Source: an uncultured Trueperaceae bacterium (lineage in GTDB: Bacteria; Deinococcota; Deinococci; Deinococcales; Trueperaceae). Taken from it: 64,000 bases of DNA. Shown here piece by piece: positions 12,799 through 24,676 of the stretch. The notes under the pieces were generated by a model, which was not told where the DNA came from, did no database searches, and worked only from the letters and a program-made list of their open reading frames with translations. The stretch is taken from contig CAJXNS010000002.1 in NCBI GenBank assembly GCA_913057165.1, positions 1 to 64,000 of the forward strand, read 5' to 3'. Position 1 is the first letter of the stretch, and every line of letters begins with the position of its first letter. The position numbers and the translations under genes were made by a program.

Positions 12799-13158
12799 AT
12801 GGCCACCAAACACAGCGACATCCGACTGTCCGTCGCCATGGACGATAGTGGCGTGACCGGCATCACCTGGGAGGCCGATGAAGCCCCCGAGCCAGGTCCC
12901 CAAAACGCCGACGCCATGCTGCTCGCACTATGGGACCCAGAAGCGCGCAATGCTCTGCGTATCGACCTTTGGACGCAACAGATGACGGTAGAAGACATGA
13001 ACGATTTCATGTTTCAAACCCTGTTGACGTTGGCTGACACGTACCAAAGCGCCACGCAAAACAAAGACCTCATGGCAGAAATCAAAACCTTTGCTCGCGA
13101 GTTTGCCGACAAGGCATCCGCTGCCGAACGCAAGGCACAAGGCCGGCCATCCGCTTAA
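12799..13158 (+). CDS. gldC: GldC-family protein
   Basis: A 119-residue soluble protein matching the pattern of the gliding-motility-associated GldC family: a short N-terminal beta strand, then DAMLLALWD, the diagnostic LRIDLWTQQM (about 53-62), a FQTLLTLADTYQSAT helix, and a charged C-terminal helix. GldC was named in Bacteroidota but homologues without gliding genes are widespread, so motility should not be inferred. A leaderless-type -10 box precedes it. Its TAA stop overlaps the reading frame of the next gene, which lacks an ordinary start. Confidence 0.75.
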   Translation: MATKHSDIRLSVAMDDSGVTGITWEADEAPEPGPQNADAMLLALWDPEARNALRIDLWTQQMTVEDMNDFMFQTLLTLADTYQSATQNKDLMAEIKTFAREFADKASAAERKAQGRPSA

Positions 13159-13913
13159 ACATCCTCATCATCGGCGCCGGCTGGCTCGGACGCCATCTCG
13201 CAGAACACCTCAGCGGCAGGGGCCATCACGTCGTCACCACGAGCCGTCGCGGCAGGCCGTATAGCGACATCAAACTCGACCTGAACCAGGTGGAAGTGGA
13301 CGACCTTGAGCACCTGACCGCCGGCGTGGACCGCGTCGTGGCCACCGTGCCGCCCACCCCACTTGGAGACACCATCGGCGACGCGTATCAGCGCCTCGCG
13401 GACGGTGCACGCAGCGTGCCACACCTCGTGCATACCAGCAGCACCGGCGTGTACGCCAAGACGACCAGCCATCCCATTGTCACTGAAGCCAGTGGCCCGT
13501 TCGCCAGCACCCCGCGAGCAGGGCGCCTCCTCGCAGCCGAACGCGCCGTGCGTCACCACCCGCACGCCACCGTCTTTAGGCTGGCTGGCCTCATCGGTCC
13601 AGACCGCCATCCCATCGAGCGGATGGCCGGCCAACCCCGCCCCGGAGGCGGAGCGCCCGTCAACCTCATCCACCGTGACGACGTGACGGCGGCCATCACC
13701 CTGACCCTCACGCAAGGCGGCCCACCGGGCATCTTCAACCTTGCTGCAGACGAGCACCCCACCCGCGAGGCGTACTACACCCATGAGGCCGCCCAGCGTT
13801 CGGTTGAAGCCCCACGCTTTGACGGGACACCCGACCCCGGGGCGGTTGTGACCTCAGATGCGTTCAAGCGCGCGACCGGCTGGACCCCCAAGCACCCACT
13901 TTCAACCCCATAA
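13149..13913 (+). CDS. SDR-type NAD(P)-binding epimerase/dehydratase, YeeZ-like, non-canonical start
   Basis: The frame encodes a Rossmann fold of about 254 residues. The dinucleotide motif LIIGAGWLG is at 13164-13190, followed by a HTSSTGVYA active-site strand and RLAGLIGP, as in the SDR_a4/YeeZ group. The problem is the start: in this frame there is no ATG, GTG or TTG between 13101 and 13290, and starting at GTG 13290 would delete the nucleotide-binding motif. The best candidate is ATC 13149, giving a protein that begins (M)RLNILIIG, with AAGG six bases upstream; a -1 frameshift out of gldC near 13155 is the alternative. A sequencing error is also possible. Confidence 0.7.
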   Translation: MRLNILIIGAGWLGRHLAEHLSGRGHHVVTTSRRGRPYSDIKLDLNQVEVDDLEHLTAGVDRVVATVPPTPLGDTIGDAYQRLADGARSVPHLVHTSSTGVYAKTTSHPIVTEASGPFASTPRAGRLLAAERAVRHHPHATVFRLAGLIGPDRHPIERMAGQPRPGGGAPVNLIHRDDVTAAITLTLTQGGPPGIFNLAADEHPTREAYYTHEAAQRSVEAPRFDGTPDPGAVVTSDAFKRATGWTPKHPLSTP

Positions 13914-13963: not shown

Positions 13964-15280
13964 ATGCTTACCCGCGTCGTCTTGTTCCCCCGCCGCCTGA
14001 GGCTCGCGTTCGCTGTCACACTCGCGGCCCTCACGGGCCTGGCCGTGACGCAAGACGCCCCAGCCATCCCCATTCCAACCAACCTCGCGTACGTCGCACC
14101 CAGCGGTGCGTTGGTGACCCAAACCCCGGGCGGTGAAACCCAAACACACGGCCGCGACGGGGCACGCTACGCCTTTCCCGCCTGGTCACCCGACGGCCAA
14201 CAACTGGCCACCATCGAACGCGAAGGCACCCGCGCTCGCGCCGTCGTGTTCACCCTGAATCAAGCCAGCAGCACACGTGAGGTGCTCCTCGACGACCCTC
14301 AGCGGGCGGTCATCTACCTCGATTGGCGCGACGACGGCCAAGCGGTCTACCTCCTCACCAACCACCCAAGCGGCCGGTACGCCCTGATCGAAGCCACCCG
14401 CGATGGCACCCGAGAGCTCACCACCGGCGCGCCCTTGTTCTGGCACGAGGCACCCGACGGCACCCTCGCGGTACACCTGCAAAACGCCGATGGGGATCAA
14501 AGCTTCCTGCTCAACCCGACCACCGGAGCGGTCACACCGCTCGACCCAGCCGGCCCGTACCGCAGTCCCGCCGTCTCCCGTAGCGGACGCTGGCTTGCCG
14601 GCACCGTGCAACCGTTCGGCAGCGCCCGCATCGACGTCAGGCGTCTACCGGTAGGCACGGCCGAGAGCGCCCGACGTCAGCTTGACTATGCCGGCCTGAC
14701 CGCCTTCGCGTGGAGCCCGCAAGGCCCCGACCGACTGGCGGTCATCCGGCCACTCGTCAACGCCCCGCACGCGTTCGGCCCGCTCGGCATCCTTGACGCA
14801 GAAGACGGCCTTTATGAGCCCGTCACCGATGCGAGCGTCCTCGCGTTCTGGTGGTCGCCCGCGGGTGACCAAATCATGTTTGTGGCCAGCGACCCGCCCG
14901 GTCAGGACAACGTCGCTGAAGGCGGTCCTCGCGGACCGGTCCTGGCAAGCGCAATGCCCACCGCAGCACCCACGCCCGCACCCAAGCGCGTCCAACAAAA
15001 CACCCCCGGCTTTCGTGTCGGTGTTGCAGGCCCAGGGGACGGTGACGCCACGTGGCTCGGCGGGGTGCGACCCAGCGGGCGCTTTCTGGCTGAACAACTG
15101 CCCTTCTTCGATCAGTACGCACGCAGCCACCGGGCGTGGTCACACGACGGCGCCATGTTCGTTCTTCCTGCCTTGGACGCAAGCGGTGCAGCGCGGCTCC
15201 TGCTGATCAACCCAAGCGAAGGCCGCATGATGGAAGGGCCGTACGGCAGTATGCCGTCTTGGTCGCCCGTCGCCCCCTAA
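13964..15280 (+). CDS. secreted TolB-like beta-propeller protein
   Basis: A 438-residue protein with a signal peptide (about 1-30, ending near GLAVTQ). Repeated motifs such as FPAWSPDGQQLATI, YLDWRDDGQAVYLL, FAWSPQGPDRLAVI and FWWSPAGDQIMFV are characteristic WD40-like/TolB blades, giving a propeller of about six or seven blades. A Pro/Ala-rich linker (about 325-345) splits the last blades. No catalytic domain is visible. The role is unknown; scaffold or ligand-binding functions in the envelope are typical. Its stop shares CTAA with convergent aguB. Confidence 0.7.
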   Translation: MLTRVVLFPRRLRLAFAVTLAALTGLAVTQDAPAIPIPTNLAYVAPSGALVTQTPGGETQTHGRDGARYAFPAWSPDGQQLATIEREGTRARAVVFTLNQASSTREVLLDDPQRAVIYLDWRDDGQAVYLLTNHPSGRYALIEATRDGTRELTTGAPLFWHEAPDGTLAVHLQNADGDQSFLLNPTTGAVTPLDPAGPYRSPAVSRSGRWLAGTVQPFGSARIDVRRLPVGTAESARRQLDYAGLTAFAWSPQGPDRLAVIRPLVNAPHAFGPLGILDAEDGLYEPVTDASVLAFWWSPAGDQIMFVASDPPGQDNVAEGGPRGPVLASAMPTAAPTPAPKRVQQNTPGFRVGVAGPGDGDATWLGGVRPSGRFLAEQLPFFDQYARSHRAWSHDGAMFVLPALDASGAARLLLINPSEGRMMEGPYGSMPSWSPVAP

Positions 15281-23396: not shown

Positions 23397-23735
23397 GTGA
23401 CACGACCTGAGGGTGCAGAAGCGTCGCAACCGTTTGCCGGTCCCAACCGGCGGGCGTTTCGTTTTCTTGCGGTTGTGATGCTTGTCGGGGTGGCGCACCT
23501 GACGTTCCTGGTGGCTGTTGAAGCCAACCGCTACCTGCGGCTTGGTGCGACCGTTGAGGCGCTTGAAGCGGATGTGCAGGCCAACCGGTCTGAGGCGGCC
23601 GAACTTCGGGCGGTTGCCGAACGCGCAAACGATGCGATGTTTCGCGAGCAGTTGGCGCGCATGCAAGGGTTTATGTTCCCGGACGAAACCCGGATTATCG
23701 TCTTGGACGACGCCCGTCCGACCAACACGCCCTAA
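23397..23735 (+). CDS. septum formation initiator-like (FtsL/DivIC-type) membrane protein
   Basis: A 112-residue bitopic protein: a short cytoplasmic N-terminus, one transmembrane helix (about 23-43), then a coiled coil (about 48-80) and a small C-terminal motif ARMQGFMFPDETRII that resembles the DivIC/FtsB ending. Such proteins link the divisome complex FtsB-FtsL-FtsQ. It is not next to other division genes but lies between nucS and ssb on the same strand. The assignment rests on topology and the motif, so the paralogue type is uncertain. Confidence 0.7.
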   Translation: MTRPEGAEASQPFAGPNRRAFRFLAVVMLVGVAHLTFLVAVEANRYLRLGATVEALEADVQANRSEAAELRAVAERANDAMFREQLARMQGFMFPDETRIIVLDDARPTNTP

Positions 23736-23869
23736 CCGGGCTGCCCAACACACACCGGTTTCTGCCGAGGGTGTCTGGCGATTCGGCCATACGGCCGCTG
23801 CGAGGCGCGGCGGTGTTGCGTACCTTCGTCTTGCCACGCCGACGCGCGGCAGGAAGAGGAGGCCACACC

Positions 23870-24676
23870 ATGGCTATTGGATGGACCGACATCACCATGC
23901 TCGGCACGACCGTGCGCGAACCCGAAGTGCGCTACACCGCAGAGGCGCTCGCGGTCATGCAGGTCGACCTGGCGGGCAACGACCGTCAGGTGGATGAGGA
24001 TGGTGTCCTACGCGAGAGGCCTTGGTACCACCGCATCACGGCGTACGGCCGTCAGGCAGAACGGATTATGGACCGCTTGCCGGTCGGCGCCCGGCTGTTC
24101 GTGCACGGTCACCTTCAGCAACGCAGTGTTCAGCAGCCGGATGGCCGTTTGCGCCACACCCTTGATGTGGTGGCCGACCGGCTGGAGCTGTTTGATTGGG
24201 GTCAGCTGGATCCCAGCTCTGAGGTGGTGCTGGACGCAAAGCAGCAGCCGCGCCTAAAAAACGCTAAGAATCAAGTGCGCCTGATCGGCAATGTGGTCCG
24301 TGACGCGGACGTGCGTGACGTGCCCAACGGTGGGGCGCTCGGACGTGTCAGCCTGGCGGTCAATACGGCCCGCAAGCCCGACGGTGAGGCACGCACGCAC
24401 TTCGTGGATGTGACCGCCTGGCGGGAGCATGCCGAAGCCTGCCGAGGCCTCCAGAAGGGCGTGCCTGCGTACGTGGAAGGCCGGCTCGTGACGGAAACTT
24501 GGGCGGGTAATGACGGCGTTCGGCGGTGGGCGACTCGCGTGGAAGCAAGACGGATTGAGCGTATTCAGAGGTTTGAACCGAGAGCGTCCTTGGAGGCGCC
24601 CGATGTGCCGGCGCCGGCCGAAGCCAACCCGCAAGTCGCGTCAGTTAGCCCCCAGCAAGGACTGAAGAGCGCCTGA
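23870..24676 (+). CDS. ssb: single-stranded DNA-binding protein with two OB folds
   Basis: This 268-residue SSB carries two OB folds in one chain (about 1-110 and 122-232), the form typical of Deinococcus-Thermus, where dimers give four OB folds. Each half has an SSB pattern: MLGTTVREPEVRYT with WYHRITAYGRQAERI, and VRLIGNVVRDADVRDV with HFVDVTAWREHAEAC. The tail is short and lacks the acidic DDDIPF-type end. ATG 23870 is preceded by AGAGGAGG; an upstream in-frame start at 23771 would add residues before the fold. Its 3' end overlaps the convergent helicase gene by 36 bases. Confidence 0.95.
   Translation: MAIGWTDITMLGTTVREPEVRYTAEALAVMQVDLAGNDRQVDEDGVLRERPWYHRITAYGRQAERIMDRLPVGARLFVHGHLQQRSVQQPDGRLRHTLDVVADRLELFDWGQLDPSSEVVLDAKQQPRLKNAKNQVRLIGNVVRDADVRDVPNGGALGRVSLAVNTARKPDGEARTHFVDVTAWREHAEACRGLQKGVPAYVEGRLVTETWAGNDGVRRWATRVEARRIERIQRFEPRASLEAPDVPAPAEANPQVASVSPQQGLKSA

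Follow-up and report, generated by a model that had tools for sequence, protein, structure and literature searches.

The SDR gene downstream of gldC

The window, i.e. the entire stretch of 64,000 nucleotides analysed here, belongs to a draft genome (G000) of an uncultured member of the Trueperaceae, which comprises 1.78 Mb on 106 contigs, compared with 2.3-2.5 Mb for the genomes of its congeners. On its forward strand, a gldC-like gene is followed by a gene coding for a YeeZ-like extended-SDR/epimerase and by a gene for a WD40/TolB-like secreted protein (Table 1). With respect to the upstream partner, the gldC product also matches NCBIfam TIGR03515 with a score slightly under the cutoff, and gldC homologues with 53-72% identity are found in most genomes of the same family.

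Table 1. Features at the junction of gldC and the SDR gene (window coordinates)
Feature	Position	Strand	Remarks
gldC-like gene, upstream partner	12799-13158	+	119 aa; Pfam GldC-like PF19937, E = 2.5e-31
SDR frame, stop to stop	13038-13913	+	291 codons
AAGG, weak Shine-Dalgarno (SD)-like site	13139-13142	+	6 nt before ATC 13149, 12 nt before TTA 13155
YeeZ-like extended-SDR/epimerase gene	13149-13913	+	254 codons plus stop; Pfam, coding score, conserved columns
ATC, predicted as most likely initiation codon	13149-13151	+	8 codons before first Gly of GAGWLG; one base from ATG
TTA, alternative candidate start aligned with those of the relatives	13155-13157	+	overlaps the stop TAA as TTAA; alignment, junctions
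gldC stop codon TAA	13156-13158	+
GTG, first in-frame standard start	13290-13292	+	SD energy +0.4 kcal/mol
WD40/TolB-like secreted protein gene, next downstream	13964-15280	+	family from sequence pattern only

The SDR protein matches the Pfam family Epimerase (PF01370) over positions 5-199 with 39.5 bits against a curated cutoff of 20.9 (E = 5.6e-10), and together with the GxGxxG Rossmann motif (GAGWLG) this places it among the SDR/NAD-dependent epimerases. It does not belong to TIGR01777 (YfcH), where it reaches 30.1 bits against a curated cutoff of 207 bits.

The position of the SDR gene between gldC and the TolB-like gene was observed only in G000, and directly after gldC it was also observed in two genomes of another genus of the same family (G016 and G024). 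In the remaining gldC-bearing genomes of the family that were examined (among loci L013-L033) the gene is missing, so that it has undergone several losses or gains. All four congeners are devoid of it; it may have been lost there or may never have been present, and in several of them a tblastn search of the locus set finds the TolB-like gene directly after gldC.

An intact reading frame without a standard start codon

The SDR gene lies in the -1 frame relative to gldC, and its N-terminus has no ATG, GTG or TTG codon back to the upstream stop of the frame. The preliminary description of this locus, which had noticed the absence of these codons before the LIIGAGWLG motif, was thus right on this point, and the positions it gave for the ATC codon (13149), the AAGG site (13139-13142) and the gldC stop TAA (13156-13158) are accurate. 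The first standard start codon, GTG 13290, is located 39 codons downstream of the first glycine of GAGWLG (13173), i.e. past the motif. An internal start at this GTG was rejected, as it would delete the Rossmann motif and is not preceded by an SD sequence.

Since 61% of random open stretches of 10 codons in this DNA are likewise devoid of all three start codons, their absence alone is unremarkable; the unusual part is that they are missing at the N-terminus of a gene. That there is a gene is suggested by codon scores obtained after training on the genes of the window: they amount to 0.43 for gldC and likewise for the 47 codons that precede GTG 13290, and to 0.38 for the full SDR frame, in contrast to -0.64 for that part of the SDR frame which lies inside gldC. 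Coding therefore truly begins near 13149-13161. The gene bears signs of purifying selection: there are no stops or frameshifts over 254 codons, and of the 35 most conserved columns (at least 90% conserved among 35 further members of the family), 34 are retained in the window protein.

In addition, an in-frame ATG, GTG or TTG was found 6-19 codons before the motif in all 81 homologues with a scorable motif (mode 6-8), so that the lack of one in the window gene is not a matter of chance. Codon scores, conserved columns and the starts of the homologues taken together thus reveal an intact gene without the start codon of its family, and the combination of an intact coding frame, conserved N-terminal residues and no standard start upstream is what would be expected of a gene with a non-canonical start.

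No second startless case was found among the Pfam-matched ORFs of the window with at least 27 codons before the first standard start, because their starts fall at or before the conserved region, as in the ORFs coding for GreA, SSB, riboflavin synthase and AP endonuclease. The SSB protein (23594-24676, forward strand) has two SSB matches in one polypeptide, and its likely ATG is situated about 93 codons into the frame.

Starts and ancestry of the homologues

The homologues directly after gldC in G016 and G024 are 40% and 36% identical to the window protein, respectively. In G016, the junction reads TAG CG ATG, so that the SDR gene has its own ATG (TAGCGATG) 2 nt past the gldC stop, and in G024 a TTG start overlaps the gldC stop by 4 nt as TTGA. 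In the alignment, the starts of these same-family homologues correspond exactly to TTA 13155 and not to the ATC. Because homologues from the same family at the same junction have an ATG or TTG of their own, an ordinary start at the gldC stop was probably the ancestral state and would have been lost here by a base change, as far as can be judged from sequence comparison. The preliminary description had suggested looking in relatives for an ATC or a frame join at this point, and neither was found in G016 and G024. It had also held that a normal ATG at the same place in related genomes would speak against an unusual start; the ATG and TTG of G016 and G024 do so for the ancestral state but are silent on the organism of the window as it is today.

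In a scan of GTDB contigs 80 distant homologues were found, none of them from this family, and in none of these 80 loci does gldC adjoin the SDR homologue. The position after gldC, in turn, is shared by the window, G016 and G024 genes, which argues for their descent from one family ancestor, and the window gene is likely to be orthologous to the other two. However, in the protein tree a clade of the window gene and the two family homologues is disfavoured by the AU test (p = 0.012). The tree thus conflicts with the shared position, but the window gene forms a very long branch in it. No independent copy of the SDR gene was found in 111 genomes of the phylum, and the junction pattern, with any third base allowed, has no match in viral contigs.

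The origin and use of the candidate start codons

At 8 and 6 codons before the motif, respectively, ATC 13149 and TTA 13155 both have a distance that is normal for the family, and a start at ATC 13161 was rejected because its distance of 4 codons falls below that of any homologue (minimum 6). The SD duplex energies are -4.7 kcal/mol for the ATC and -4.5 kcal/mol for the TTA, with a median of -5.8 kcal/mol for the genes of the window, and a value of -4 kcal/mol is attained by roughly one random site in four; being weak and common at random sites, these energies do not decide between the two codons. Rfam gave no match at the junction.

At the first two codon positions, initiation factor IF3 tolerates nothing but Watson-Crick pairs, and it excludes weak pairs at the third (PMC10158994). 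AUC satisfies the rule of pairing at the first two positions, whereas UUA, whose first and third positions mismatch the initiator tRNA, does not. In a selection in mycobacteria, ATC together with an SD sequence resulted in low but above-background initiation (PMC4633059), and in E. coli AUC serves as a near-cognate start in reporters (PMC8299109). AUC is therefore favoured over UUA, as it complies with the pairing rule and as ATC with an SD sequence initiates in mycobacteria. The candidate ATC start put forward in the preliminary description would accordingly be the best remaining option, with a normal distance to the motif and an AAGG at 6 nt, although the SD sequence is weak.

The explanation that we prefer, and to which we would give about an even chance, is that of a real SDR gene in a gldC operon which has lost its ordinary start by a base change and is most likely translated from AUC 13149. 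In an ancestor, an ordinary codon at the gldC stop would have served as the start, and after the base change had removed it in the present genome, initiation may have come to rely on the AUC, a near-cognate codon that retains the A and U pairing with the initiator tRNA. The AAGG would probably assist, as would, by translational coupling, the ribosomes ending gldC translation 7 nt downstream, and the output of SDR protein would be low. A rather unlikely variant assumes that the ribosomes ending gldC re-initiate at the TTA (TTAA) or at the ATC, 7 nt before the stop, with a codon that would be unfit for de novo initiation.

All this presupposes that the base is correct. A base error in the metagenome-assembled genome, or a consensus drawn from a minority strain, would mean that the true codon is ATG 13149 or TTG 13155 and that there is nothing unusual about the locus. 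In favour of such an error are the draft state of the genome with its 106 contigs, the fact that both candidate codons are one base away from a standard start, and the standard starts of all relatives. Moreover, a comparison of closely related genomes with 61,358 ancestral AUG starts reported one switch to AUU and none to AUC (PMC5622118), and it is this rarity of documented AUH switches that makes an erroneous base or a strain-level mutation a serious rival. However, such errors are rare in assemblies, too, and the locus is otherwise clean, with an intact frame of 254 codons and a gldC gene that ends normally, so that we consider the error improbable, though by a good deal the weightiest of the competing explanations. 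As to the non-standard codon itself, the gene is missing from the four congeners, the searches yielded no conspecific copy, and the homologues in G016 and G024 start with ATG and TTG, respectively; given the lack of both a conspecific copy and a gene in the congeners, a base error and a fresh loss of the start each retain some probability.

In the latter case the gene would have become a pseudogene only very recently, with its lineage in the process of losing it, and would no longer yield a useful amount of protein. Its absence from all four congeners, in several of which the next gene follows gldC directly, would be in line with such a loss, as would the small size of the genome and the long branch of the protein. 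The lack of stops and frameshifts, a codon score like that of the neighbours and the retention of nearly all conserved columns speak against decay, and we regard this possibility as unlikely.

Slightly more doubtful still is initiation at TTA 13155 by ribosomes that terminate on gldC and re-initiate on the spot, the TTAA having arisen from a TTGA arrangement by a G to A change. The starts of the same-family homologues align exactly there, and the TTG of G024 overlaps its TGA in the same 4-nt manner. On the other hand, a first-position mismatch is rejected by IF3 (PMC10158994), and UUA has one there as well as at position 3; the SD spacing would be 12 nt, and the tree lends no support to the orthology on which the exact register depends.

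A programmed -1 frameshift that fuses GldC to the SDR domain, the alternative named in the preliminary description, accounts for the SDR frame being -1 to gldC and open back to 13038. However, no slippery X XXY YYZ heptamer occurs in the zero frame of gldC near the junction before the stop, that part of the SDR frame which overlaps gldC scores like non-coding sequence, and the downstream frame is not startless in the relatives at the same junction, which start separately, one of them 2 nt after the gldC stop. The missing heptamer and the separate starts of the relatives thus lead us to reject the fusion in practice, and it appears very improbable.

An annotation program restricted to ATG, GTG and TTG as starts would shorten the SDR protein to a form devoid of the nucleotide-binding motif. 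Should the codon be real, AUH initiation in the Deinococcota would gain an example other than infC, and the locus would provide a natural test of whether translational coupling relaxes the choice of start codon; if the codon is due to a mistake in the assembly or to a recent mutation, its relevance is confined to annotation.

Comparison with known systems

A startless gene such as this one is of an uncommon but known kind. Within the SDR family, the window protein shares the GxGWxG Rossmann and STxVY motifs with YeeZ-like/NAD-dependent epimerase proteins (PDB 3gpi, 3ius), but is fast-evolving, with an end branch of 1.81 (median 0.49), and compared to the same-family homologues it has a short deletion after beta-strand 2.

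With respect to initiation, the infC gene of G000 itself (contig C5 near 41267; L115/L116) has an apparent ATA start after GGAGGTGAAGTCA, with a GGAGG 8 nt upstream and the codons ATA GCG AAA at the conserved N-terminus. The aligned infC start of relatives (L117-L138) is ATA in most, ATT in G010, ATC in G012 and G014, and GTG in G028 and G032. Judged by these alignments, AUH initiation apparently occurs in this lineage at infC; this is, however, a known peculiarity of infC and does not count as evidence for the SDR gene. In Deinococcus deserti, which belongs to the same phylum as the organism of the window, Baudet and colleagues (2010, Mol Cell Proteomics 9:415) reportedly detected genes with non-canonical initiation codons, in that case by proteomics.

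Like infC with its AUU, AUC or AUA starts, the SDR gene would employ an AUH codon one base from AUG. In infC, the odd start is combined with a strong SD sequence and has been retained by the relatives as an element of the self-control of IF3, whereas the odd codon of the SDR gene is confined to one genome and accompanied by a weak SD sequence.
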